A stretch of 33,202 nt of DNA, from positions 1 through 33,202 of IMG/VR virus record IMGVR_UViG_3300042517_001250. One strand, written 5' to 3'. The notes beneath the pieces are model-generated. The model did not search any database. It saw nothing but the letters and a program-made list of their open reading frames with translations, and was not told where the DNA came from. Source of the DNA: a virus. This document shows, in pieces, positions 10,183 to 30,893 of the stretch (positions are counted from its first letter, which is position 1; the number at the start of each line of letters is the position of its first letter). The position numbers and the translations under genes were made by a program.

Positions 10183-11382
10183 TTATATATTTTGAAGTGC
10201 TGTTGTAATGAAACTAAAATCAGCTTGTTTTGGAAAATAAATTGGGTTTAAATTATTTTGAATGTCAAATATAATATTACCATTCAAATCCATTAACCTA
10301 AAACCTCTTATTCTTGGCAACTTAAACACATCAACTGGAACATCTATATTTGGGTAAAAATAGTAATCATTGACATAACGTACACCATCTACATTTTTTA
10401 CAATTTGTAGTAGATTATCCCATTCTATTTTTTGTCCAGTTCTCATGTACCTATAATCCAAATATTTGCCTAGTTGTATTTGAATTTGTTTTCTTACCTC
10501 GTCAGGGTTATAACTAGGCTGTAAATCAACCCTCATGCTTATATCCAATGGTTGGAAGTCTACATTTCTAAGCACCATACCATAACCATTAAAATTTGAC
10601 GGTCTAAATTCGGTAATTGAGAAGAATTTACTGCAACGTAGAAGCATGTCGTTAAACTCGCTTTCTGTAAAGTCAATTCCGTTTTCAGCAAGTACATTTA
10701 AAACAACCCTACCATCGTTATCTATTCCACCATAATATACTTTGAAAACATTTTCATTTATTTTCATTAATGTTTGTTCAATTTGCGCTATGGTGCTTCT
10801 GCTCAACAAATTTATACCTTCCTTAATTCGTTTACGAAAAACGTCATCGGATTCAGCATCACTACCCATCGTGGCATGGTATTCGTTTATGCTATATTCA
10901 TGCCCATTGGGTATTGGGTTAATTTTATTAATTGTGGTTGAAGGTACATTGGTTTTTTCTCCAGTAGTATTACTTCTAACCTTAACATAGCCGTATCCAA
11001 AATCACCTATGGTGTAATCGTTAACCAAATCAAATTCTATTCCGTCAACGCTTTGAAATGAATGTACTCCAGCTACATATTGAGTTCCAACTGAACCAAC
11101 TACCAACATATATGTTGAACTTTGTTTTTGCCCAAAACGCTGCCCGACTCCCATCAAATTAGCAATGTAATCCAAGCTTTCACCAAAAGCTGTATCTGGA
11201 AACATGTGGCTTTCAAGCAATGCAACATCCTTTGTAACTTTTTGTTGTAATTTAGCAACACCAAATGCATTGGCATTCATTACACTACCATCTGTAATTT
11301 TGGTAACTTCGTCTGTCTTATTTAAAAATATTTCTGAAAATATTGCTTTAAGTTCTTCTATTGGTGTTATTTTCGTTATCAT
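10183..11382 (-). CDS. Baseplate wedge protein, Mu gp47/P2 gpJ-like (Baseplate_J family)
   Basis: 399-residue baseplate wedge protein, equivalent to P2 gpJ/T4 gp6, which forms the ring joining the hub to the fibres. The Baseplate_J pattern is visible: an N-terminal LDYIANLMGVGQRFG segment, then VAGVHSFQSVDGIEFDLV and KTNVPSTTINKINPIPNG. Next comes the hallmark SDAESDDVFRKRIKEGINLLSRSTIAQIEQTLMKI (in part, about 165-205), then NEN-VFKVYY. The C-terminus (RPSNFNGYGMVLRNVDFQPLDISM, in part) matches the beta-rich distal region. Length is typical of the family. It lies directly after the gp25-like gene (3 nt), the usual order W-J of contractile tails. Confidence 0.88.
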   Translation of the reverse strand: MITKITPIEELKAIFSEIFLNKTDEVTKITDGSVMNANAFGVAKLQQKVTKDVALLESHMFPDTAFGESLDYIANLMGVGQRFGQKQSSTYMLVVGSVGTQYVAGVHSFQSVDGIEFDLVNDYTIGDFGYGYVKVRSNTTGEKTNVPSTTINKINPIPNGHEYSINEYHATMGSDAESDDVFRKRIKEGINLLSRSTIAQIEQTLMKINENVFKVYYGGIDNDGRVVLNVLAENGIDFTESEFNDMLLRCSKFFSITEFRPSNFNGYGMVLRNVDFQPLDISMRVDLQPSYNPDEVRKQIQIQLGKYLDYRYMRTGQKIEWDNLLQIVKNVDGVRYVNDYYFYPNIDVPVDVFKLPRIRGFRLMDLNGNIIFDIQNNLNPIYFPKQADFSFITTALQNI

Positions 11383-13426: not shown

Positions 13427-14518
13427 TTATGTCGTTTTTAATGTTTTGCTTTTTGCGTTCTCGAACTTTGACTTAATAGCTCTAATCTTGTTACCTATTT
13501 TTGCAAAATTGGTTAAATTGTCTGGCATAAATACCAAATTGCCACTAATAGGGTCTATTGTTTTTGTTTGAATTAATTCCAAACAAAGGTTGGAAGTTTG
13601 CTTTATTAATTCGTCAATTATTTCTAATGTTTTTTCGCCCAATAGTGTAACTTCTTCAGGGTTAGAATTTTTAGTTATAATCCTAACTTTCTTATCTTCA
13701 TCTGGCAACATAATAACAACCCCATCCTTATCCATTGTTATCTTGTTTTTGGTTTTATCCATAACAACGACACCATCACTATATGTTGAAATTGAATTTA
13801 GATTTTTATCAATTAACGTAATACCTTCCTTGCTAGTTGTAATATTGTTACCAAATTCATCTATTATGTTGAAGCCAATATTTACCTTATAACTTATTTC
13901 ACTTTTAGCCTTAACGTCACTACCTAGTTGGTTGTACACATTTATAATGCTGAAGCCACTATTGCTATGCAGATTCAAATATTTTTCACAATGTACATTT
14001 ATATCCCCTTGAACATACAAATCGTAGCTACCTAAGTTTTCAGAATTTTTAACTGCAACATTTATGCTATGACCATCAACCAATAATGACATTTTGCCAG
14101 AATTGCTATCGTGAACTATTTCCGAACTAAACCCATTGCCTCTAAGACCATGTACTATTTCGTTTTCAACCAAACTTGAATTTATTTCATCTCTTTTGGG
14201 CAAACAACCAATTATTATGGGTTGATTATTAATTGGTATATTTATCCAAACAACACAACTGCCAACCTCGTTGTATTTTTCTGGAAAAACAATGGAATCC
14301 CAACAGAAACGACTAACCAAACATTTAGTCATAACCTCACTTCTGTGTGAGAATATATTTATGGTATTGGTTCTCTTGCAATTTTTAATATAATCGGCTC
14401 TACTTTTAGTTTTATCTAAAACAACATATCCAATACCCATTGGCAACCTTTCAGCTTCCAAACGTACTGGATTAACACCATCGCTAATTGGTTGGCTTGA
14501 ACTTTCATTTACATTCAT
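13427..14518 (-). CDS. Baseplate spike protein (gpV/gp5/VgrG-like OB fold plus beta-helix)
   Basis: 363-residue central spike that tips the tail tube and pierces the outer membrane. Residues about 60-130 look like the OB-fold of gpV/gp5 (CLVSRFCWDSIVFPEKYNEVGSCVVWINIP in part, IIIGCLPKRDEI). Residues about 160-300 form regular strand repeats ending in a triple-helix-like stretch with FGNNITTSKEGITLIDKN, SDGVVVMDKTKNKITMDKDG and VVIMLPDE, typical of spike beta-helices. The start ATG overlaps the end of the hub gene by 4 bp (ATGA), so the two are coupled. A C-terminal helical tail of about 60 residues (EVTLLGEKTLEIIDELIKQT...) is unusual because most spikes end at the needle tip. Confidence 0.8.
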   Translation of the reverse strand: MNVNESSSQPISDGVNPVRLEAERLPMGIGYVVLDKTKSRADYIKNCKRTNTINIFSHRSEVMTKCLVSRFCWDSIVFPEKYNEVGSCVVWINIPINNQPIIIGCLPKRDEINSSLVENEIVHGLRGNGFSSEIVHDSNSGKMSLLVDGHSINVAVKNSENLGSYDLYVQGDINVHCEKYLNLHSNSGFSIINVYNQLGSDVKAKSEISYKVNIGFNIIDEFGNNITTSKEGITLIDKNLNSISTYSDGVVVMDKTKNKITMDKDGVVIMLPDEDKKVRIITKNSNPEEVTLLGEKTLEIIDELIKQTSNLCLELIQTKTIDPISGNLVFMPDNLTNFAKIGNKIRAIKSKFENAKSKTLKTT

Positions 14519-17500
14519 ATCTGCCTTCTGTTTAATAAAAATTTAAAAATTTCAGTATTCACACTCCAAGTCGTTGGATCCCATTTGTCTGAATTCTTGT
14601 TGTTTCTAAGCAATTTAACTAGGTTAAAATACTTCTCATAATGTTTTTCAACTATTCCTCTGTTAACTTGCAATGTTGTTTCGCTTGAAATAATTTCCCC
14701 AAACTCCCTAGAATTACTTACACCATCAACATAAAACAATTCTCCAGTAGGCACATAACGTATATTCATGCCACGCTTTATTCTTCTATCTGACTTTATT
14801 GTAATTGTGCCTTGTCTTGTAAATGGTAAATAGGCATGTGTTTCAATCAGCCAATCTAAATCTTGCCTACCTTGCGATTTTATTATATCTAGATTGTTTT
14901 CAGTTTGCACACTTTGGCTAACATCTATATCCAAATATTGTGTCGTAATTTCAAGTATTTTACTTCCCCAAATTTCCATGTATTCAGGTAACATAACCGC
15001 TGGAAGTATAGCCATGCTTTCACCCAAACTATCGTCAATCAAGCTACCATAAGGGTTCAGCTTGTACCATGTGTAAAATTCATTATTGAATGATAAATTG
15101 TCGGCAATAACATCATCTTCGTATATGTTTATTGTGTAATTACTTTTGTAACTACTTTCACTAAACGGAGGCTTCCTGCAAATGAAATAAAATTTGTCGC
15201 CGTATGTGTCCATAAAGAATTCAACAAAAGGCTCTTGGCATATTTTCCTTATCAAATTCATAAGACTTCCAGTTGCACTAGCAAAACTTTGGTCAGCTAA
15301 ACGCCTACCACCTATTTCCTTATCTATTACCAATTTAACTATTTGCCAAATGCCACTAGCTTTTATCAAATCAATGTCGTTTCCATTAATAAATGCTTCT
15401 CTACTTACAACAAATGTTTTTTCTTCAAAATAATTAAACAACGTATCGTGTACAATATCTATATTGGTTAATTGTGTGAATATAAACACTAACCATTCTT
15501 CAATGCTCTGTGTCTTGTCAAAATTAAAGGAAGCTGTTGGCATAAACCCTTGTAGGTTATTTTGTATATTAGCCTCGTATGAGTCTTTATTTGTGTCTTT
15601 AGACGGAGGAATAATAATCCTATTGCCAGACTTGTGGTTTGCACTATTTAAAATAATTTGCTCCCTGTCCTTAATTATGTATTCAATTGGGAAAAAGTAA
15701 ACACCGTCATCAATTAATAACTTACTTAAATCTTGTCCAGAAACATTTATTTTCCTTACACCACCTTCTGAATTTGTGGCATCTGCAACATTGGAAACCA
15801 AACCTATCATGTCAAAATAGTTATTTGGCAAACTACTATTTGAAATTTTAAATTCGTTTTCTAAATCTATTGTTTTTTTATCAATGCCAATTTTTTCCAT
15901 TCTAATAAAAACAATATCATTGTTTTGCAACAACCTATTAAAGAAATTAAATTTTCTAATAAATTGTTCACCTTCAACCTTACCATCACTATCACCAAAC
16001 TTAGCCTTTATATCCTCAGGCTTCAAAACATCCTTATAGTGTAATGTATCTTTGTTTACATAGTTTTTTTGACCATTGAATTCATATTCATAAACCAACA
16101 AATCTGCAAGGGTTTTAATATCCCGTTTGCCTACTGAAATATGTGGCAACGTAATTGAAAAATTGCCACCATTTTTATTGACATTTATTTGTATGTTTTC
16201 AACAAAATTAGTAATGTTTGTAAGAGTGCTACCATCTGAATCCATAGACTTTGACCAAACCCAAACCTTACACCAACTTTCCTTTTTGAATATGCTTCCC
16301 TTGTTTAAATCATTCCAACTATCTATGTTCAATTTTTTGTAATCCTTGTTTTTTATAATTGAACTTATTTTCTTTTCTATGAAAGCATTGTAATCATTAT
16401 TTTCAACTATTTTAGAATTTACACCAGAATTCTTTTCAGCGTAATATTTGTTTCTAGGTATCGCTAGTATTGTATTGGGTACAATAAAATCCTTATCAGC
16501 CTTGCCATAAAATTTTTTCTGTTCGTTATTGTAACTTGAATAAATTGAGGTTTTATTATCGTACAATTCGTAATCAAGTATTTCTTTTGGTTTCATTTGC
16601 AAACCATAGAAATCAATTATTTTTTGTAACGTATTGTTTTCTGTATTTGAATCCCTAATTGTTATGTATTCTGGAGGTGGAATTGGTTTAGTCTTTTCAT
16701 TTGCAATTGGTTCATCCCCCCTAGCAATGTCGTTTGTTAATTCACCTGAATTCCTTTCGCTATCTGTTGTAAGCTTGGTTGTTTTTGCATTTATCTCCTT
16801 TTTTAAATTTGATAAATTGAATTTTGTTATATTCAAACCACCATCTGGTATTTCAAAATGAACTGGATCGTAGTAACCCCTAAACTTGTCACCACCCCAT
16901 AAAAAACCTAATTCCTTTGCAATTTGTGGTATTCCAGTTGAATTCCATTCAGCTAAAGTACTACCCTTTTTGGTGTACTGCTTTCTTGTTTTTATTGAAA
17001 TTAAATTTAAATCAATTGCTCTACCCTTCTCATGTCTGCTGTTTCCAGGTTTAGCATTTCTACTATCCTTTGCATGTAATTGTCTTTGCTCTTCGTATGT
17101 TCTGTAACCGCTAGTTAAGTGAACCAAATAACCACGCTGATTAATGAGGTTGATAAGTGCCAAAAATATGTTCCTAATTTTTTCATCCTTCAAGCCATAA
17201 ACAAAATGCATGTTTATATTGTTGAAGACATTTGAAATTTTACGTTCTTTAGCTTTTTTATTTTCAACTGGAGGTTGCACCCCCTTAAACAGATTGTATT
17301 CCTTTATTCTTCTATCATCAATGCTTTTAGTGCCGTTGAAATTGTGTGATCTCCATGAAGCTTTTAACTTACTTTCGTTTGAATTTTCTTCATTAATAAT
17401 TTTAGCAATTTCAGTTGGTAAATTTCCTACCGCATAAATTAGCATACACAATGCATCAATTTGATTTTGGTTAAGGTTCTTAGATATTTTTGAAAAATGG

Positions 17501-17730
17501 TGATACACATTATTCTTCAAATGGCTTTTAATGTACTCATTGGCTTCAACGCTATCTTTATCAAAATTAACCCTTTCACCGCTTCTAACCTTCCTACCAT
17601 TTGGGTGATAATGGTTTCCAAAACAAATACACCAACCACTTGCAGAATTTAAATCTGGGTATGCAACCTTTCTAAACCCTTCGTCTGATTTTAAAATATT
17701 CAAACCATTATTGCTAATTTCTACTTTCAT
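14515..17730 (-). CDS. Tail hub fused to GH24-type lysozyme and M15 peptidase (tail lysin)
   Basis: 1071-residue fusion. (a) Residues 1-150: GH24 lysozyme with E17 in KSDEGFRK, D26, and GWCICFGNH (32-40) in the place of the usual WTIGYGH; the catalytic Thr position is C34. Helices NQNQIDALCMLIYAVGN and SWRSHNFNG fit the C-lobe. (b) 165-295: M15 L-Ala-D-Glu/D-Ala peptidase with SGYRTYEEQ (207-215), Zn ligands H233 and D240 in SRHEKGRAID, and D288-P-V-H291-F-E. (c) 355-430: LysM-like segment (TLQKIIDFYGL ... PNTILAIP). (d) From about 485: gpD/gp27-like hub (CKVWVWSKSMDSDG, NVNKNGGNFSITLP, INVSGQDLSKLL). It lies 1 nt after the tape measure gene and overlaps the spike gene, as a hub should. It would cut sugar and peptide bonds of peptidoglycan during DNA entry. 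Confidence 0.88.
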   Translation of the reverse strand: MKVEISNNGLNILKSDEGFRKVAYPDLNSASGWCICFGNHYHPNGRKVRSGERVNFDKDSVEANEYIKSHLKNNVYHHFSKISKNLNQNQIDALCMLIYAVGNLPTEIAKIINEENSNESKLKASWRSHNFNGTKSIDDRRIKEYNLFKGVQPPVENKKAKERKISNVFNNINMHFVYGLKDEKIRNIFLALINLINQRGYLVHLTSGYRTYEEQRQLHAKDSRNAKPGNSRHEKGRAIDLNLISIKTRKQYTKKGSTLAEWNSTGIPQIAKELGFLWGGDKFRGYYDPVHFEIPDGGLNITKFNLSNLKKEINAKTTKLTTDSERNSGELTNDIARGDEPIANEKTKPIPPPEYITIRDSNTENNTLQKIIDFYGLQMKPKEILDYELYDNKTSIYSSYNNEQKKFYGKADKDFIVPNTILAIPRNKYYAEKNSGVNSKIVENNDYNAFIEKKISSIIKNKDYKKLNIDSWNDLNKGSIFKKESWCKVWVWSKSMDSDGSTLTNITNFVENIQINVNKNGGNFSITLPHISVGKRDIKTLADLLVYEYEFNGQKNYVNKDTLHYKDVLKPEDIKAKFGDSDGKVEGEQFIRKFNFFNRLLQNNDIVFIRMEKIGIDKKTIDLENEFKISNSSLPNNYFDMIGLVSNVADATNSEGGVRKINVSGQDLSKLLIDDGVYFFPIEYIIKDREQIILNSANHKSGNRIIIPPSKDTNKDSYEANIQNNLQGFMPTASFNFDKTQSIEEWLVFIFTQLTNIDIVHDTLFNYFEEKTFVVSREAFINGNDIDLIKASGIWQIVKLVIDKEIGGRRLADQSFASATGSLMNLIRKICQEPFVEFFMDTYGDKFYFICRKPPFSESSYKSNYTINIYEDDVIADNLSFNNEFYTWYKLNPYGSLIDDSLGESMAILPAVMLPEYMEIWGSKILEITTQYLDIDVSQSVQTENNLDIIKSQGRQDLDWLIETHAYLPFTRQGTITIKSDRRIKRGMNIRYVPTGELFYVDGVSNSREFGEIISSETTLQVNRGIVEKHYEKYFNLVKLLRNNKNSDKWDPTTWSVNTEIFKFLLNRRQI

Positions 17731-17731
17731 T

Positions 17732-19519
17732 TTATTTCTTAGTTGAATTAAAACCTATTTTACTTAAATCCCACATTGATTTGAATACGCTCATTCCAGG
17801 AACAACACCAAACGCATTTACACCCATATTAACTCTATTTTCAATAGTACCATACTTTTCATTATCAGCCTTAGTTCCTAAGCCGACAGTACCTAGCATT
17901 TCACGTCCAGCATCTTGTATTCCACTAGTAATTGTTGTCTTAAGCTTATCCCAATTGGTTATACCCTCTTCAGCTCTAGTTTTTATTGAATTGAATTTTG
18001 CATTAATATCACTATCACTTGATTTCATACCATTGGTAGCCTTAATCATTTCTTCCAAACTGCCAGAATTGTCAAGCCTAATTGCATCCTGCCAATTCTT
18101 AGTGAGTTGAAATAAAACCATCCTTCTCATTTCACCTTGTTGCATTTGTGCAATTTGAGGTAAAATAGCCTTTAAATTTTCACCACTAGCACCATTTTCC
18201 ATTTGCCCCATTATGTCGGTATATGAACCTCCTGGATTAGCCCTTTGCAACATTTGATATATGTATGCCCTCATGCCCCCATTGGTAGGGTTTTTAATAC
18301 TACTATCAATTCTACCCAAACTTTCACCTAATCTATCATCACCAAAACGACCACCAATTTTATCTCCTGCTATTGCCATGCTAGTAGCAAAGTTGCTATC
18401 AACCGTTTCACCATTACCCCTCTGCATAGCCATAATATCGCCTATTGCAGATATTTTTTCAGGCAACCTACTAAAATCATTACCACTCACACCTAGTATG
18501 CCATTCTTTTCACTTCTTAAAAGTAAGTCGGCAATAATCATACTACCATCCCTTCTGTTTTCAGGCTTGTCGTATTTATAAAACCTATCCAAACCACTAG
18601 TTTCACCCTCGGTTAAGCTGTAGGCATTTTCCAAATATTTATGTCTCCTAGTATCTTGCGCTAAAGACTCCCCACCGAAACCCCTACTTTTAGCCAACCT
18701 AACTCCAGCACCCATCAATTCAGCATCGTCAAGTCCAGTTCCAGCGTCATTGTAATTTCCAGTAAAACCGCTAAATTTATTTTCAACCAACATGTTGCTT
18801 TTTGATTCAGCCCTACTTAATTTCAAACCCTCGTCAAAAAGCTTTTTAAAACCCATTATTAAGGCTGTAACAATTGCACCACCTAGTAACATACCTCCAG
18901 CACCTAAACCAACGCTTCCCATCATACCTTGCGCCCCTATTTGCATCATTCCAGTACCATTACCTTGTACTCCTGCTGAAGCCATGCGAGCCAACACGCT
19001 AGGTGAATCTTTTTCAACCACATTATTACCCAACATATTAGAAACTTTTCTATCGTGTTGCCTTTGCATGTGAGCACTATACTCTTCGGGTGACATTTTG
19101 TCTTTAAACTTTTCATAACCATGCATCGGGTCAAACCCAACACCCTTACTGGAGCCAGAAGAAGCTTGTTTTTCTAATGCTCTAATATATCTTTCAAATT
19201 TGTCCGTAAGTAGCTTAAACTTTTCATCTATGTTACTTCCTTCTTCTCTTCTAATTCTTGCCCTACCAAATGCATTCCCACCTCTACTATCATCAATGTT
19301 GTCGTGCATTTCACGACGCATTTCTTCAAGTTTTTTCTTAATGGCTTCTACACGCTCTTCAGTTTTTTCAAACGCTTTATCGGCATTTGCTAAAATATCA
19401 AAGTCGCTAATTTCTTCAAATGCTGACCTAAAGTTTTCCTTGGCTTCTCTTGCTGTTTGGTTTAACCCACTAGCATCAGCATCAAGCCTAATATTAATCC
19501 TTTTATCTTCAGAAGCCAT
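17732..19519 (-). CDS. Tail tape measure protein
   Basis: 595-residue protein that sets tail length and is ejected ahead of the DNA. Residues 1-130 are highly charged coiled coil (LDADASGLNQTAREAKENFR, EKTEERVEAIKKKLEEMRRE). Around 195-230 lies a Gly/Met/Ala-rich hydrophobic segment (GMMGSVGLGAGGMLLGGAIVTALIMGF, in part), the usual membrane-insertion region of tape measures. The rest has helical and Gly-rich parts. It follows the chaperone-like pair and precedes the hub, the canonical order. At about 0.15 nm per residue the length gives a tail of roughly 90 nm. There is no fused peptidase; lytic domains are on the next gene. Confidence 0.88.
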   Translation of the reverse strand: MASEDKRINIRLDADASGLNQTAREAKENFRSAFEEISDFDILANADKAFEKTEERVEAIKKKLEEMRREMHDNIDDSRGGNAFGRARIRREEGSNIDEKFKLLTDKFERYIRALEKQASSGSSKGVGFDPMHGYEKFKDKMSPEEYSAHMQRQHDRKVSNMLGNNVVEKDSPSVLARMASAGVQGNGTGMMQIGAQGMMGSVGLGAGGMLLGGAIVTALIMGFKKLFDEGLKLSRAESKSNMLVENKFSGFTGNYNDAGTGLDDAELMGAGVRLAKSRGFGGESLAQDTRRHKYLENAYSLTEGETSGLDRFYKYDKPENRRDGSMIIADLLLRSEKNGILGVSGNDFSRLPEKISAIGDIMAMQRGNGETVDSNFATSMAIAGDKIGGRFGDDRLGESLGRIDSSIKNPTNGGMRAYIYQMLQRANPGGSYTDIMGQMENGASGENLKAILPQIAQMQQGEMRRMVLFQLTKNWQDAIRLDNSGSLEEMIKATNGMKSSDSDINAKFNSIKTRAEEGITNWDKLKTTITSGIQDAGREMLGTVGLGTKADNEKYGTIENRVNMGVNAFGVVPGMSVFKSMWDLSKIGFNSTKK

Positions 19520-19520
19520 A

Positions 19521-19865
19521 TTAAAAATCGTTTAAATCAATGTTATTAAATTCGCTATCCAATTCTTTATTGTTCATTTTAACAATTTGCTTAGTGTTTA
19601 CATCCTCTGTATTGTTTAGCACACTATTATATAGTTCCTTTTCTTCATTATCTTCCATATCTCTAACCTTTTCATGAAATCTATCTTCCATGAATTCAAT
19701 AACCATATTAATGTGATTAGCTTCTAGGTGTTCTTTAGCACCAAATGGTATCCCATACTTCTTTCTCCACCAATAATCGTATGGGTATCTAATATTCCAT
19801 TCTGAAACAAACTCTTTTATTTTGAGTGTATTCCCATTAGCTAGTTTGACTTGGTTCATTATCAT
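19521..19865 (-). CDS. Putative tail assembly chaperone, second overlapping ORF
   Basis: About 114 residues from the ATG at 19865 (another ATG is at 19859; an in-frame TTG lies at 19889, and the frame is closed by TAG a few codons upstream of that). Features: NGNTLKIKEFVSEWNIRYPYDYWWRKKYGIPFG near the N-terminus (in part), then an acidic helical tail with EFMEDRFHEKVRDMEDNEEKE. It overlaps the end of the preceding ORF in another frame and lies directly before the tape measure gene, the position of lambda gpT or Mu gp42. Two readings are possible: independent start at the ATG, or joining to the preceding ORF by a +1 or -2 frameshift. I cannot tell which, and I saw no obvious slippery site. Confidence 0.7.
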   Translation of the reverse strand: MIMNQVKLANGNTLKIKEFVSEWNIRYPYDYWWRKKYGIPFGAKEHLEANHINMVIEFMEDRFHEKVRDMEDNEEKELYNSVLNNTEDVNTKQIVKMNNKELDSEFNNIDLNDF

Positions 19866-20208
19866 CTTTGTTAATGGTAACTTCCTCAAGTTGCTTTTCT
19901 AGGTTTGTTAAAAATGGGTACAACACTTTCGTGTATTCTATTTTGATTTCACTTGAAGTTTTTAAATCCATGTTATTGAAATCATCAATCCCCAAATTTA
20001 ATTCTTTGATTAAAATTGCAAAATTGGAAAATGCGTCTACTAAGTCCAGAAGATCAAGGCATGTTTTATGCCCACTCCTAACAAAGTCGCCATATTGACC
20101 ATTCGTAAGTAAAACCTTATAGTTTTCTATTTTGATTTTCTCACCTACATTTGGATAATTAACTACAAATTCTTTTCCTTTTAAATTTACTTTTACTGAT
20201 GTTTGCAT
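19837..20208 (-). CDS. Putative tail assembly chaperone, first ORF
   Basis: 123 residues. The N-terminus is beta-rich (TSVKVNLKGKEFVVNYPNVG), the remainder helical with a C-terminal acidic tail (KQLEEVTINKDDNEPSQTS). Lambda gpG-like chaperones wrap the tape measure before tube assembly; they are identified mainly by position between tube and tape measure and by an overlapping second ORF, both of which hold here. The ATG at 20208 is preceded by copy 2 of a 27-bp intergenic element. It ends inside the next ORF (overlap 19837-19865 counting from that ORF's ATG). Confidence 0.7.
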   Translation of the reverse strand: MQTSVKVNLKGKEFVVNYPNVGEKIKIENYKVLLTNGQYGDFVRSGHKTCLDLLDLVDAFSNFAILIKELNLGIDDFNNMDLKTSSEIKIEYTKVLYPFLTNLEKQLEEVTINKDDNEPSQTS

Positions 20209-21525: not shown

Positions 21526-23223
21526 TTAAAGTTTGATATTTGGGTCTAAAATGTATCCTGTGAAGAACAGCTTGTTAATCGGTCCGTTTGGTACAAAGCA
21601 ATACTCAATGTTCCAATAATCATTTACTAGTTCAACTTTTACATTTTCAAATCTAATAATCAGATTATCTTGCAATGCTCTTACTGAACGTGATTGTAAA
21701 TACCCTTCGGTGAACAGCTTAATTTCTTCAGCACTAGCTGTAAACAAATTGCCACCAACAAATCTAGTAGTTGCATTTATTTTCAACTCCTTATTAATTT
21801 GGTGAATAATTCGCATTATTTGAATTTCAGGACTTTGACCATTTGCAGAAATAAGCAAATTGTTGTTTTGCATGGTATTCACACCCTGATTAATTACCCA
21901 ACCTAATTGTTGTTGATATCTAGTGTGCAATACACCGCCGATAAGTGCTTGTTCTCTTTCGCTCTTTTTTAATTCATGCACCAACCCAGATATTCTAATA
22001 TTCTTGTAAGTAATTGGTATCTGTGGCTCCATTCCAGCTGTAAGACCGCAAACCATCGCAGAATGATAAAATGAATCGTATTCTTTAAATGTTGCACCAC
22101 CGCTATAATTTGGCATCAAAACACCACTATGCACAATTGAAACAAACGCATCGTTATAGTAACTTGCACTTTCCAAACTACCATCATCTGTTCCAGTAGT
22201 AAACTCGTCAGCATTATTACCGCCACCAATAAACATAAGCTTTTCGGTAAAGGTACTATTCTGCTTTATATAGGCTAGAATCTTACCATTTGCAACACTT
22301 TGAGCACCATTGTTTGTACCAACTACCATCTGAGGTGCTGTCCACGCTGGACTTGGTTTCAAGCCATAATCACATAACAAAAACAAGCTATTATCTAAGT
22401 CAACAATGTTATCCAACACATCGTCAACATCTGTTGGATTGTATGAAGTTGTACCACTTGCAAATAATTGCGCTGTTGTACCAAAATTGGTTAAATCAGT
22501 TGGTGTCAATGAAGTTGCACTTGCTGTACTTGCTGTTAAGGCAAATAGTTGATTGAATTTATAATCAGTAGCCATCCATGCAACCAAATCATTTACACTT
22601 GAAAATTCAGGAGTCTGGCAAACAATTTTAGCATCACAATTCACTTCCTCTGTAACGTATTCAACATTGTCAGCATTTTTGCCCCTATATTGCCCCTCGT
22701 AAAATTCAATTATGTATTTTGCTGTATCAATTATTCCAGCTTTAAGCTTCCAACCATAACCTCTACTTACTATTGAAAGTCCATTGTAATTTGTAACTAA
22801 TGCACCATTGCCACGAGTACCTTCATTTTTACATTTTAGTGTAATCGCTCCAGTAGAAAATGTAGTTGCCTTTATAGCAGGGACTGTCGTACAAGCACGA
22901 ACATAGATAACCTTTTCGGGACCTAAGCCATTTTTAGATGGAGACCATAAGAAGTCGGCAACATCATATAAAATTCCACCGCCAATGCTTTCCTTCATAT
23001 CCCTAGCGTTTTTGAATTCATAAACTGATTTCACACCTCCAGCTGTAGGTAATCCAGCGTTAATGCCACCTCCGTAACCATAACCAACACCAATTCCTGT
23101 ATCAATTATGCAAACATTACCATAAGTACCCAATGTTACTGGAACTGGAACACCGCTCTTAATTTGCGAATACGCTCCTGGTTCTATTACTTTTCTACCA
23201 TTGAAATTAACTATTGTAGCCAT
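21526..23223 (-). CDS. Tail sheath protein
   Basis: 565-residue contractile tail sheath. It opens with ATIVNFNGRKVIEPGAYSQ and a Gly-rich segment (GVGYGYGGGINAGLPTAGG). A region with RDMKESIGGGILYDVADFLW and EKVIYVRACTT (about 75-115) resembles the sheath core. The C-terminal third (KLFTEGYLQSRSVRALQDNL, then VELVNDYWNIEYCFVPNGPI and a final FTGYILDP) is the conserved sheath end, which makes inter-subunit strand exchange. Length is within the usual range. It defines the phage as a myovirus-type particle. Confidence 0.93.
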   Translation of the reverse strand: MATIVNFNGRKVIEPGAYSQIKSGVPVPVTLGTYGNVCIIDTGIGVGYGYGGGINAGLPTAGGVKSVYEFKNARDMKESIGGGILYDVADFLWSPSKNGLGPEKVIYVRACTTVPAIKATTFSTGAITLKCKNEGTRGNGALVTNYNGLSIVSRGYGWKLKAGIIDTAKYIIEFYEGQYRGKNADNVEYVTEEVNCDAKIVCQTPEFSSVNDLVAWMATDYKFNQLFALTASTASATSLTPTDLTNFGTTAQLFASGTTSYNPTDVDDVLDNIVDLDNSLFLLCDYGLKPSPAWTAPQMVVGTNNGAQSVANGKILAYIKQNSTFTEKLMFIGGGNNADEFTTGTDDGSLESASYYNDAFVSIVHSGVLMPNYSGGATFKEYDSFYHSAMVCGLTAGMEPQIPITYKNIRISGLVHELKKSEREQALIGGVLHTRYQQQLGWVINQGVNTMQNNNLLISANGQSPEIQIMRIIHQINKELKINATTRFVGGNLFTASAEEIKLFTEGYLQSRSVRALQDNLIIRFENVKVELVNDYWNIEYCFVPNGPINKLFFTGYILDPNIKL

Positions 23224-24196: not shown

Positions 24197-26518
24197 TTAA
24201 AACATTTTTAAACCCATTCTAATATAAGCACATGCTTCGTCTGGGGAGCAACCAAACATTTCAACAAAACCTTTTGCAATATAGTTTTTATCCAATTTAC
24301 CATTCACTGTCTTATGTTGGTACAAATAATCAATGGATTTTCTGTTAAACTCTTCGTTAAATATTTCTTCCTTTTCTTTTTTAGTTAATGGAGGTTTTCC
24401 AGCTTCTTCCCTATCCAATTCTTGAGATTCAACTTCCGCTGTTGACATTTTACTAAAAGCTAATAATGTTTCAACACTACGAGCATTGATGTCAAATGCC
24501 TTATCCTTATGTTTATCGAGCATTTTAATCACATGGTCCATTTCGTCGTGTGAATAATTTTTAATACCATCAAATTCCATATTGGTTAATTCTCCATTGT
24601 CTTTTTTGGCAATATGTTTAATGTATGTCATTGTGTCCTTTCTATCCATACTAAGGTCTTGCGCAAAACTTCTACTCATAATTGGTTGCATTTCCTTACT
24701 TTTAGTAATAGTATCCTTAGGTATGTTGGTAATAAATATCATTTTACCACCGAAGTCAAATTGCTTTGGTATTTTACTTCCATCACTAGCTTTAACTTCC
24801 CTTTGGGACATATTACTAACTTGACTTTGACTGCTACCCAATGCTCCTTTCATATACCCTTTAATATCTGGGTCTTCTAAGGCTGAATCACAATCATCAA
24901 ACACCATTACCTTGTCGTTATGTTCCCACATCAATTGGTAAAATGAAGTTGCTGTAACCTTACCACCATCTATAAACACATAATCATAGTCATCACTTCC
25001 TGGAGTGTGAATCTTTGGGTCAAACATTCTGTCTTTACCAAATTTCCTCTTAAGTGTTTTTTTGACTGTGAAGGTTTTACCAACACCACCACTACCATAC
25101 ATGATAGCACTTTTTTTCATACCATCGCAAACAGCATTCACAGCTCCAGCAAAATCTTTAAATTTTAATGTAATTCTTTTTACAATGTCAGCATCTGATT
25201 CATTATCATCATCAGTTAGCGGATGTTTGTTATCATCATCAAGTTTTGCTTGTATTTTGTTAGCACTAGCATCAGCTTTAGCATCTGGAACTTTACCCTT
25301 AAAAGTAGATTTGTGGTCTGCTGGGAGTTCACCTCTTTCTTTAAGCACATCCTCTGCACTAGTATGGTATTCATGTGTGGTATCCTTTCCACTAATGTAT
25401 CGCTTTAAAACATCACTACTTTTAGTTCTAGCTAATTTGTGGTGAGGTGTATTTAATTTTTTACCATCTTGTTTTACTTTTGCTGTAGGCTGTCCAGTAA
25501 CTTGGTTCCCATTGGCTCTAGGCTTAATTTCATGGTGATGTTTTTTGTATATTGTACCGTCATCACCATGAATAACGTACTTTCCACTACTACTAACCCT
25601 ACCAACCTTTCCAGACTTTTTTTCACCACCATGTTCAAAATCTGCATGGCTACCATGTTCAGCATGTTCTTTACCATTGGCATCAACCCAACGCTTAGTC
25701 TGTTTGCCATTCTTGTCGGTAACTTGCTTTAGTGTTAAATGGCTTGTATCTAAACCTTTTTCAAGTTTGTCTTCACCATTGTTACCATTTTTAAAATTTT
25801 TTTCTATAAAATCATGTATTAAATCAAACCCTTCATCAGTTTCCTCCCAATAACTTCTTTCACTCATTGGTAATTCTAATTTTATTTTTTTTATTTTTAA
25901 TTTGAATTTGTTTAAATTTTCCCTACTAACTTTTAAATTTTTAAAATCAAAATCTTTTGGTAGTATTTCGTCTTCAATTAATTCCTCAATTGCAAAATCA
26001 AATGTTTCATGTAATGAATTTGGAATTTTTACACGTTCTTCTTTAATTTCCCTACTTGCTTTTTCGTGGGCATCCATGTTGTTATCCATCTTATCAACAA
26101 TTCCACTATGCGGATTATCATGCGATCTTTCCATGTATTTATCATACCTAGCCTGATGTAAATCACTTGCATCTAAATGATCCTGCTTAGTAAAATTTTC
26201 ATGCGATTCATGGTCAAAATGATTGTAAACATCCTTACCTGATTTTGTTTTACCAATTACTCTTGAATCAACACCATCAGATTTGTATTTTTTATCATAA
26301 GTAGTTAATCCTTCATTCGACACCTTTTGCCATTTACCCTCGGCAATTTTTTTGTAACCATTTCTAATCTCACCAATTTGACCATGCTTACCACCTTTTT
26401 CAAGCATGTCATTACTAGTAATGCTTTTTTGAAATTCATCTGCAATACCAAAACTAGCTAGTATTTGTTTTCTCTTACTTTCTCCGTAACTGAAGTTTGT
26501 TATATTATTATTTCTCAT
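24197..26518 (-). CDS. Modular AAA+ ATPase embedded in virion gene cluster
   Basis: 773 residues. N-terminal leader (1-28) with SKRKQILASFG; module A (29-67) with NDMLEKGGKHGQIGEIRNGY; module C (about 88-160) with IGKTKSGKDVYNHFDHESH; helical acidic region (about 165-245); module B (261-327) with LTLKQVTDKNGKQTKRWVD and GDDGTIYKKH. Next a low-complexity Lys/Asp-rich linker (330-430), then a AAA+ domain: Walker A GSGGVGKT (475-482), Walker B VMVFDDCD (D541, D542), a sensor-1-like MIFITN (about 595) and an Arg-finger-like MSRSFAQD (about 617). The AAA core resembles a known phage ATPase type with VFDD and SRS signatures. It probably acts as an oligomeric ATPase on protein or DNA; substrate unknown. 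Modules A, B and C recur in the two genes upstream. Confidence 0.85.
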   Translation of the reverse strand: MRNNNITNFSYGESKRKQILASFGIADEFQKSITSNDMLEKGGKHGQIGEIRNGYKKIAEGKWQKVSNEGLTTYDKKYKSDGVDSRVIGKTKSGKDVYNHFDHESHENFTKQDHLDASDLHQARYDKYMERSHDNPHSGIVDKMDNNMDAHEKASREIKEERVKIPNSLHETFDFAIEELIEDEILPKDFDFKNLKVSRENLNKFKLKIKKIKLELPMSERSYWEETDEGFDLIHDFIEKNFKNGNNGEDKLEKGLDTSHLTLKQVTDKNGKQTKRWVDANGKEHAEHGSHADFEHGGEKKSGKVGRVSSSGKYVIHGDDGTIYKKHHHEIKPRANGNQVTGQPTAKVKQDGKKLNTPHHKLARTKSSDVLKRYISGKDTTHEYHTSAEDVLKERGELPADHKSTFKGKVPDAKADASANKIQAKLDDDNKHPLTDDDNESDADIVKRITLKFKDFAGAVNAVCDGMKKSAIMYGSGGVGKTFTVKKTLKRKFGKDRMFDPKIHTPGSDDYDYVFIDGGKVTATSFYQLMWEHNDKVMVFDDCDSALEDPDIKGYMKGALGSSQSQVSNMSQREVKASDGSKIPKQFDFGGKMIFITNIPKDTITKSKEMQPIMSRSFAQDLSMDRKDTMTYIKHIAKKDNGELTNMEFDGIKNYSHDEMDHVIKMLDKHKDKAFDINARSVETLLAFSKMSTAEVESQELDREEAGKPPLTKKEKEEIFNEEFNRKSIDYLYQHKTVNGKLDKNYIAKGFVEMFGCSPDEACAYIRMGLKMF
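25538..25738 (-). repeat. Module B copy in AAA+ gene
   Basis: 201-bp coding segment for 67 residues, from LTLKQVTD to TIYKKH. It matches the segment at 27420-27620 at 57 of 67 residues. DNA similarity is clearly lower than protein similarity, with many third-position changes, so it is kept by selection on the protein. Confidence 0.85.
26318..26434 (-). repeat. Module A copy in AAA+ gene
   Basis: 117-bp coding segment for 39 residues, from FQKSITSNDM to GKWQKVS, identical at all 39 residues to the segment at 27973-28089 but with many synonymous differences in DNA. Confidence 0.85.
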
Positions 26519-26537
26519 TGTGTTTTAAATGTTTTTG

Positions 26538-27752
26538 TTATTTTAATTTTGAATGAAATTGGTAAACTTTAGCATCCCATTGACTAAATGAACCACTTAC
26601 GACTGGAAATCCAACCCACGAGCCCGAATACGAATAACCACTTGAACTAAACTTGTAACCGCCATCTCTAGACATAATTGAATTCAGCATTTCTGCGGAA
26701 ACATCCGCACTATTATTATTAATTGAAGACGAAGCCAATCCAGCATTGTTCTTTGAAAATTTATCTTTATGTTTTTCTTGTAAATCGTACTTATCAAACA
26801 TTATACTCATTTCATATTGAAGTTTTTTATTGTCTACTTCTACATCAAAATGAATACCAACATCCTTGCCATATTTTTTAAGAGTAGCTTGTGAAAGTTC
26901 CTTAAATCTAGCAAAACCTTTCTTAATTTCTGCAAACATTTTATGGTCTTTAGTGTACCCATTTCTTTTAAACCCACTTAAAAGTTCTTTCTCTTTACTT
27001 AATGCCTTATCTAAATTCGCCTTATTGTCAGCTAATTGTTTTACCTTTTTTGCATCAATAGGTTTGGTAGGCTTACTAGCTGTAGGTTTAGTTGCTGAAG
27101 TATTTTTTGTTGCTTCTTTGCTGTGTTTAAGTTTTTGTTCAGTATGGTGTCGCTTTTCATGATTTGCTAACATACCAGAGCCATACCCACCAGTCTCGTC
27201 AACAATTTTTTGCTTTTCAGAAATTTTATCGCTGTGCAATTTTACTGCATCCTCGTGGTCTTCTTTGCTGAAATCTTTATGTTCAGGGTGTTCAGCATCA
27301 TTGTATATATACTTTCCAGAATTAGTTTTACCAATCGCACCTTTCGGTAAGCCTTTGTTTTTAGAATCATTGCTTACATCTTTTGCCTTGTCACCATCAT
27401 GCTTCTGCAATTCCATTGGGTGTTTCTTGTAAATAGTGCCATCATCGCCATGTACTACATATCTACCACTACTGCTCACCCTACCAACTTTTCCAGTTTT
27501 CTTTTCACCATTGTGTTCAAAACTAGCATGTGTTCCATGCTCCATGTGTTCCTTATCGTTAGGGTCTACCCAACGCTTCGTTTGCTTTCCGTTTTTATCG
27601 GTTATTTGCTTTAAGGTAAGATTGCCTCTGTTAATAGCTTTTTCAAGCAAATCATCACAATCTATACCCTTTTCAAACGATACAAATGGTACATCTTGCT
27701 TAAAGTTTGCTAGAATTTGTTTTGCTCTAACTGCATCCAATATATTTCTCAT
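26538..27752 (-). CDS. Modular charged protein, paralogous to the AAA+ N-terminus
   Basis: 404 residues. The N-terminus (MRNILDAVRAKQILANF) shares the KQI(L/M)..F leader of its neighbours. Module B occupies 45-111, module C about 140-210 (IGKTNSGKYIYNDAEHPEH), then a Lys/Thr/Ala-rich linker with KKVKQLADNKANLDKALSKE (about 220-260), a helical domain with FARFKELSQATLKKYGKDVG, and a Ser/Gly/Tyr-rich C-terminus (YKFSSSGYSYSGSWVGFPVV). No catalytic motif is seen. It is unlikely to be a broken AAA+ gene because its C-terminal part is unrelated. It may be a partner, adaptor or substrate of the ATPase, or an internal virion protein. Confidence 0.75.
   Translation of the reverse strand: MRNILDAVRAKQILANFKQDVPFVSFEKGIDCDDLLEKAINRGNLTLKQITDKNGKQTKRWVDPNDKEHMEHGTHASFEHNGEKKTGKVGRVSSSGRYVVHGDDGTIYKKHPMELQKHDGDKAKDVSNDSKNKGLPKGAIGKTNSGKYIYNDAEHPEHKDFSKEDHEDAVKLHSDKISEKQKIVDETGGYGSGMLANHEKRHHTEQKLKHSKEATKNTSATKPTASKPTKPIDAKKVKQLADNKANLDKALSKEKELLSGFKRNGYTKDHKMFAEIKKGFARFKELSQATLKKYGKDVGIHFDVEVDNKKLQYEMSIMFDKYDLQEKHKDKFSKNNAGLASSSINNNSADVSAEMLNSIMSRDGGYKFSSSGYSYSGSWVGFPVVSGSFSQWDAKVYQFHSKLK
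27420..27620 (-). repeat. Module B copy in 404-residue gene
   Basis: Second copy of the 67-residue module described at 25538-25738, same length without gaps, ten residue differences (V/I, A/P, G/D, A/M, S/T, D/S, G/N, S/T, K/R, I/V). Confidence 0.85.
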
Positions 27753-27762
27753 TCAAATAGTT

Positions 27763-28158
27763 TTAAAAATGTTTATGTGAACTCCATTCTACATCTCCAT
27801 CATGGTGGTCATTGCGAATTCCACCAATGCTATTAACATGCTCATCATCGTAAACTTTGCTGTCAAGCTCACTTGCCGACTTCTCATGAGCAAAAGCACC
27901 ACTTTTGTCACCATAATATAATTTATTTTTAACTTCATTTTGGTGTTCTTTTTTTGTCCAACCATGTGTTTTAGAAACTTTTTGCCACTTCCCTTCGGCT
28001 ATCTTTTTGTAGCCATTACGAATTTCCCCAATTTGACCATGTTTACCACCCTTCTCAAGCATATCATTACTTGTAATGCTTTTTTGGAAGTTGTCGTCTG
28101 TAGTGCCAAAACACGACATAATTTGCTTTCTTCTAGCTTCGTCACCTATGTTTTTCAT
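27763..28158 (-). CDS. Small modular protein, first of the three-gene modular locus
   Basis: 131 residues. Leader MKNIGDEARRKQIMSCFG, module A at 24-62 (identical to that of the AAA+ protein), then a short region with HGWTKKEHQNEVKNKLYYGD and a His/Asp-rich C-terminus (IGGIRNDHHDGDVEWSSHKHF, in part). The C-terminal segment with AFAHEKSASELDSKVYDDEH loosely resembles module C. The gene follows the FnIII protein after 27 nt and precedes the 404-residue gene after 10 nt. Function unknown; probably works with the two downstream genes because they share its leader. Confidence 0.7.
   Translation of the reverse strand: MKNIGDEARRKQIMSCFGTTDDNFQKSITSNDMLEKGGKHGQIGEIRNGYKKIAEGKWQKVSKTHGWTKKEHQNEVKNKLYYGDKSGAFAHEKSASELDSKVYDDEHVNSIGGIRNDHHDGDVEWSSHKHF
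27973..28089 (-). repeat. Module A copy in 131-residue gene
   Basis: Encodes the same 39 residues as 26318-26434. Both copies start 23-28 residues after the initiator Met, right behind a KQI(L/M)..F leader. Confidence 0.85.
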
Positions 28159-30437: not shown

Positions 30438-30893
30438 TTATATAATTTGGTTTAAGTGGTTTTTTAAATCCAATATTAAATTCATACCATTGAATTGCAA
30501 CTTGTCAGCCATTACATAATTGTCATGCTCGTCTTCATCTAATACTATTGTGGCTTTGTCGTTAATCAAATTGCTAACAAAGTAATACAGAATACAATCT
30601 GGTAATTCCAACCTATATGGATTGCCTAATAAAACATAATCAACTTTTGGCTTTAATCCAGTTTCTTCGTATGTTTCCCTAGCACATGTTTGTAATAAGG
30701 TTTCACCCTCTTCCCTATGACCTCCAGCTGTACACCAACAACTTGGATGTGAACTTCTAATGCAACGCTTCAATAACAATATTTTATCAACGCTAATAAT
30801 AATGTTGTTCACAAACTCTTCCTTCTTTTCTTTTTTAAAAGAGTTGAATATTTGCCTTGAAATTATTTTATCTTTAGGGTTTATTTCGTACAT
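30438..30893 (-). CDS. Nudix hydrolase
   Basis: 151-residue Nudix enzyme, which hydrolyses a nucleoside diphosphate linked to another moiety. The Nudix box is complete at residues 58-80: G58 x5 E64 x7 R72-E73 x2 E76-E77 x G79-L80 (AGGHREEGETLLQTCARETY and onward). Upstream strands (IIISVDKILLLKRCI) and LLGNPYRLELPDCILYYFVS fit the fold. Its ATG at 30893 is preceded by a GGAGG at 7 nt spacing, the only consensus Shine-Dalgarno I found. It sits within the head-tail connector genes, so it may have been inserted from elsewhere. Substrate (dNTP, NAD/ADP-ribose, cap) is unknown. Confidence 0.92.
   Translation of the reverse strand: MYEINPKDKIISRQIFNSFKKEKKEEFVNNIIISVDKILLLKRCIRSSHPSCWCTAGGHREEGETLLQTCARETYEETGLKPKVDYVLLGNPYRLELPDCILYYFVSNLINDKATIVLDEDEHDNYVMADKLQFNGMNLILDLKNHLNQII

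Follow-up and report, generated by a model that had tools for sequence, protein, structure and literature searches.

The viral DNA analysed here (33,202 nucleotides, hereafter the window) encodes a 1071-residue protein that is very probably a hub-hydrolase, meaning a tail-associated lysin carried by the hub at the centre of a contractile tail. This reading is based on the Pfam domains of the protein, the invariant residues of its M15 peptidase, the fold and homology of its hub, the order of the tail genes, a relative with a contractile tail and the exchange of modules among related hubs. Enzyme-bearing hubs are already known, including the two-enzyme hub of diffocin, and the fusion itself is not new. 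The novelty is a family of hubs from contractile tails that carry swappable wall-active modules; most of them come from uncultivated viruses, and the hosts are apparently Bacteroidota. The main interest lies in this modular family and in the odd active site of the lysozyme domain rather than in the fusion.

Domain architecture of the probable hub-hydrolase

A sequence-only reading of the window had located the gene correctly; translation assigns it to the minus strand, where it forms one unbroken frame, the plus strand carrying many stops (Table 1). The same reading had divided the protein into a GH24-type lysozyme, an M15 peptidase, a LysM-like segment and a hub, a four-part make-up that Pfam and predicted structures bear out. 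Within the first 300 residues both lysozyme and M15 were matched above the Pfam cut-offs: Phage_lysozyme (PF00959) at residues 15-141 (E 2.6e-9, 37.9 bits, cut-off 22.3), Peptidase_M15_4 (PF13539) at residues 227-294 (E 1.1e-9, 39.2 bits, cut-off 25) and VanY (PF02557) at residues 184-278 (E 1.5e-8, above the curated cut-off). The two stretches also match solved enzymes, among them GH24 9kbq (3.8e-8) and the L-alanyl-D-glutamate peptidase 2vo9 (7.7e-7). Prediction of the full protein with AF2 gave no confident model of either enzyme domain (pLDDT mostly <50) because the alignment was too shallow, and their assignment rests on sequence evidence.

Table 1. Positions of the hub-hydrolase, its parts and the neighbouring tail genes in the window
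Feature	Position	Strand	Basis
Baseplate J / wedge protein	10183..11382	-	PF04865 1.3e-16, phrog_6 1.1e-32
Probable central spike; lytic domain not found	13427..14518	-	inferred from position; Pfam, PHROG
Hub-hydrolase gene, 1071 aa	14515..17730	-	single ORF, translated
Conserved C-terminal motif, SVNTEIFKFLLNRRQ type	14518..14592	-	sequence comparison with relatives
Predicted gp27/gp44/VgrG-type hub core, residues ~480-1041	14608..16293	-	AF2, Foldseek; homologs
LysM-like domain, residues ~346-436	16423..16695	-	AF2 model; VIA-align to LysM folds
M15 peptidase domain, residues 160-310	16801..17253	-	PF13539, VanY; alignment
GH24 phage lysozyme domain, residues 1-150	17281..17730	-	PF00959; residue comparison
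Probable short tape measure; lytic domain not found	17732..19519	-	inferred from position; Pfam, PHROG
Contractile tail sheath	21526..23223	-	phrog_279 E 1.7e-34

The hub part, which has no match in Pfam or PHROG, is predicted to adopt a gp27/gp44-type tail hub fold over residues ~480-1040. Its AF2 model, built with an alignment of 27 family members, has pLDDT values mostly of 60-93 across residues 480-1040, with low stretches such as 681-738. Against the PDB, Foldseek matched the model best to a baseplate chain, ORF56 of phi812 (9euf_E, E 8.9e-17), and also to the diffocin hub-hydrolase (8v3w_H, E 3e-12), T4 gp27 (1k28_D, E 5.1e-7), MuSo2 (3cdd), Mu gp44 and VgrG; the matches to the phi812, Mu and T4 hubs agree with the gp27/gpD-like hub that had been proposed. 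The core is further related to the hub of a Lysinibacillus phage (blastp 1e-13), which itself belongs to phrog_1015 (1.2e-168), annotated as ‘tail protein with lysin activity’, and matches phi812 ORF56 (9euf_E, 5e-49). The window hub is homologous to the Herelleviridae hubs of that description.

The LysM-like segment (residues ~350-430) is modelled by AF2 with pLDDT values of 93-98 over most of its length, and neither this segment nor 31 hubs matched a LysM profile of Pfam at E values up to 0.05. VIA-align superimposes the model on 4uz2_A with a Z of 4.6 (1.8 A over 48 residues); LysM chains align at Z 4-5 with an rmsd of ~2 A over ~50 residues, the model having two extra helices, and the highest Z (5.1) belongs to a phiCD508 baseplate chain. 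Foldseek matches are weak, the best (E 0.05) being a LysM receptor. Since the segment is found across the family described below, including hubs without an enzyme, we read it as an adaptor that is probably structural rather than a wall-binding accessory, with wall binding as the lesser possibility. The proposed segment may be LysM-like in its fold and is less likely to be an accessory that binds the wall.

Active sites of the two enzyme domains

The M15 active site is intact. An alignment of six hub-borne M15 domains has H233, D240, D288 and H291 of the window domain as invariant residues; we take H233, D240 and H291 to be zinc ligands and D288 to be the catalytic Asp, and the H-D-H/D set that had been picked out from the sequence is complete.

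The first domain, a GH24 member by homology and not a proven lysozyme, keeps E17 and D26 together with the fold residues Q88, D92, G102, R140 and R141. Its catalytic Thr is replaced by Cys34 and the Gly at position 36 is also a Cys, and it carries a two-residue insert. Thr and Gly are found at these positions in 81/81 domains compared, a set made up of the domain of the family hub L120 and the best 80 of 119 viral GH24 domains, which were collected with two patterns and are somewhat biased, one pattern having demanded T or C at the position 34 site and so permitted Cys. According to excerpts of PMC8228626, every published structure in this family of endolysins shows E(X)8(D/C)(X)5T, a motif from which the window domain, with E17-X8-D26-X7-C34, departs. 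With the catalytic Thr and a conserved Gly both changed to Cys, glycan cleavage is possibly absent; the domain has lost a standard active-site residue, which leaves its activity uncertain and the usual mechanism doubtful. The idea that both cleavages reside on the hub stands as far as the presence of the two domain families is concerned, whereas cleavage of the glycan has become uncertain in view of the two substitutions and the insert.

How the pair of domains would work can be read in several ways. A serious candidate, to which we give somewhat less than an even chance, is that M15 alone is catalytic, the GH24 domain being what is left of a lysozyme, decayed or put to another use as a glycan binder or a spacer. 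The two cysteines at otherwise conserved positions and the insert argue for it, as does a second hub-borne GH24 domain, that of L120 (L120:5020-5490), which is likewise altered: Asp stands where the catalytic Glu is expected, and 10 residues are inserted; the retention of E17, D26 and the five fold residues is unlike typical decay and argues against it. The conventional dual-activity lysin of the sequence-only reading, with both enzymes fully active, is possible and we hold to it only tentatively: PF00959 is matched over nearly the full length of the model, E17 and D26 are in place and diffocin sets a precedent for paired activities on one hub, against which stands the departure from the published motif. 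Dual glycan and peptide activity of the window hub is as such plausible. On a more doubtful conjecture, the hub-mounted lysozymes of the family drift away from ordinary catalysis, and the window domain, with Cys34 and Cys36, may have a cysteine-based or strongly attenuated mechanism or be a glycan grip that steadies the wall for the M15 blade. The Thr to Cys change raises a direct question for biochemistry.

Tail genes, host and proposed mode of action

The tail genes are ordered sheath, tube, small ORFs, tape measure, hub, spike and wedge, where the sheath and the wedge are named by profile and the remaining genes by position. Pfam and PHROG detect no lytic domain in the genes on either side of the hub, which supports the earlier placement of the lytic domains on the hub and not on the spike or tape measure. 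An overlapping pair of ORFs between tail tube and tape measure (19521-20208) lies in the position of a tail assembly chaperone and is a possible frameshift or overlap. Elsewhere in the window, three adjacent ORFs (24197-28158) have repeated front modules of the KSITSNDMLEKGGKHGQIGEIRNGYKKIAEGKWQKV and LTLKQ(I/V)TDKNGKQTKRWVD types in common, the largest of them containing a P-loop-like GSGGVGKT, and an RNase H gene (1338-1760, 2.8e-29) adjoins a helicase-like ORF (2-1378) at the end of the record.

Judged by hub, sheath and baseplate J, the nearest cultured relatives are Bacteroides phages and Chryseobacterium phage MA9V-3, the tail of which is contractile by electron microscopy according to excerpts of PMC13120357. 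One hub of the family sits in a Chitinophagaceae genome bin, and a Shine-Dalgarno motif is present at 1/26 gene starts of the window vs 9% of random positions. Shine-Dalgarno use is weak in Bacteroidota. From the cultured relatives, the hub in the Chitinophagaceae bin and the scarcity of Shine-Dalgarno motifs, the host is probably a diderm Bacteroidota, in keeping with the Gram-negative host previously suggested. The sole gene start with such a motif is that of a NUDIX hydrolase (30438-30893, E 8.5e-14).

We infer the following course of events, including the trimer, its baseplate position, the timing, the enzymatic activity and the host. On the model of gp27-type hubs, the tail tube would be capped by three copies of the hub, situated above the spike, and each copy would hold its lysozyme-like and M15 domains at the edge of the hub by means of a proline-rich linker and the LysM-like adaptor. 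Contraction of the sheath and piercing of the outer membrane by the spike would bring the enzyme domains into the periplasm, where the M15 peptidase would cut the peptides of the peptidoglycan and let the tube through; the GH24 domain would cut the glycan strands, perhaps poorly, or grip them.

It is improbable that the enzymes serve virion assembly or lysis from within instead of entry. M15 and GH24 are common among endolysins and all PHROG matches of the front part of the protein are to endolysin families, bar one weak match to a tape measure (E 0.36); a hub fusion encoded among the tail genes, and modules that have been exchanged on the hubs of many relatives, nevertheless fit a virion-borne role. 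As the record is only 33 kb long, a separate endolysin gene is possible.

The hub family and its modules

When the window protein was used as a single query against viral contigs, zero relatives were found; queries built from the hub alignment found them. From viral contigs, genome contigs and phage records we collected 83 distinct hub ORFs, of which 24 were set aside (split over two ORFs, partial, or the Lysinibacillus hub), and the remaining 59, all with the core complete, were grouped together with the window hub at 90% core identity, which gave 58 clusters. Ahead of the core lie 132-205 residues in 43/58 hubs and 255-488 in the other 15; behind it lie 22-148 residues in 46/58 and 207-349 in 12. 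No hub is extended at both ends, an absence of co-occurrence that is only suggestive (hypergeometric P 0.017, kinship ignored), and 31/58 are extended at neither, a class defined by length and scanned with Pfam as far as its members stood in alignment A3.

Ten of the 15 hubs extended on the N-terminal side match a wall enzyme above Pfam cut-offs: GH24 plus M15 in the window, GH24 in L120, M15 in L071, L078, L121, L062/L100, L114 and L019, and M23 in L088 and L123. The matches of L036 and L089 to M15 are weak, and L007, L055 and L057 lack an enzyme match. L036, the nearest relative, has an N-terminus that is M15-like by sequence (M15_3, sub-cut-off, E 0.016), and the N-terminal module of L007/L026 has no match in Pfam, PHROG or phages and nothing notable in the PDB. 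Pfam wall enzymes are recognised in 8 of the 12 hubs extended at the C-terminus (NlpC/P60 in L022 and L023; M15 in L025, L030, L034 and L035; GH24 in L043; SLT_3 in L056); L074 has an OmpA-like domain, L002 and L020 match a transglycosylase or endolysin by PHROG only, and L051 is without a match. Home-made GH24 and M15 profiles added nothing further in any of 59 hubs, and the window hub is the sole one of the 58 with two recognised enzymes.

Across the family, modules precede either the LysM-like domain or the conserved C-terminal motif, which the window hub also possesses and just before which the C-terminal modules are inserted. In L071 and L078 the M15 peptidase interrupts the LysM-like domain, a third place of insertion. 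An OmpA-like domain, possibly a grip on peptidoglycan, lies ahead of the last hub motif in L074, L058 and L063, and in L063, L064, L072, L080, L085, L086, L099 and L185 the hub is spread over two neighbouring ORFs, the break falling at a similar position of the core in each, either as two genes or through frameshifts.

In a tree of hub cores the window groups with L036 and L007 (support 99), and each of the three has a different front module. M23, GH24 and M15 share one place in another clade, and in a third the C-terminal place is taken by M15, NlpC/P60 or transglycosylase. On this tree, made by a quick method and with several weakly supported branches, the place of the module changes at least 10 times and its type at least 18 times. 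The closest match found for the window M15 is the C-terminal M15 of L035 (48% over 121 residues); over the whole domain the two are 42% identical and their hub cores 36%, which fits modules having moved from hub to hub and from place to place, or having been drawn repeatedly from one shared pool. The family offers natural variants with a constant hub in which the wall-active module differs, as does the place it occupies, so that what a tail needs for crossing a thin wall becomes testable by comparison of domains.

In viral contigs, phage records and GH24 loci, no genome other than the window was found to pair GH24 with M15 on a hub. Among the relatives, 16 whole records or genomes gave one match to PF00959 and one to PF13539, both at known hubs, and the GH24-M15 stretch was covered to 80% at a single place in 0 of the 235 matching records among 50,697 phage records. 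At the 80 viral GH24 loci the hub profile matches no ORF and the home-made M15 profile a single one, in L238. A hub search of 395 genomes from the phylum of the Chitinophagaceae bin returned the bin itself and two weak matches, and these chromosomes are thus almost devoid of the family. That the fusion is an artefact of assembly or annotation is very unlikely: the hub-hydrolase is known from a single metagenomic virus record, but its frame is open throughout, the GC content is even (~0.32 in the lysozyme, M15 and hub parts) with no sign of a chimera, and L036 and L007 also join N-terminal modules just before the same LysM-like part.

As in the window, the cell-puncturing device of T4 (gp5-gp27) combines the gp27 hub fold with a GH24 lysozyme; T4 carries this lysozyme on its spike, gp5, and is not known to have a peptidase in the device. 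The tail lysin hubs of Herelleviridae (phage K ORF56/TAME, phi812 ORF56, phrog_1015) share with the window a homologous core, contractile phages and a fused wall hydrolase, but they serve against Gram-positive hosts and bear one C-terminal CHAP (ORF56) or NlpC/P60 domain, whereas the window hub bears two different N-terminal domains. In excerpts of PMC3207973, phage K ORF56 is the tail-associated muralytic enzyme that has been characterised; it has a CHAP domain at its C-terminus and was localised to the tail by immunogold. The presence of both activities on a hub, which the sequence-only reading had presented as distinctive, already occurs in diffocin, where a transglycosylase and an endopeptidase are carried on a gp27-like hub (excerpts of PMC10996793). 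Its protein CD1368 (8v3w_H) unites glycan and peptide cutting on one chain, as the window does by its domains; the enzymes of CD1368 are C-terminal and belong to a bacteriocin directed against Gram-positive cells, in contrast to the N-terminal GH24 and M15 of the window. HydH5, phiMR11 gp61 and SP-beta CwlP, virion lysins of Gram-positive phages, also have two different lytic domains per virion protein, from other enzyme families. A literature search by title and start of abstract found no hub lysin of Bacteroidota phages, of which published examples may exist. In the excerpts of a 2017 review (PMC5380687), two-domain virion lysins all come from phages of Gram-positive bacteria and are tied to thick walls, and one Gram-negative virion endopeptidase is named, phi6 Gp5; a dual-domain hub in an apparent Bacteroidota phage would weaken this link between two-domain lysins and thick walls.
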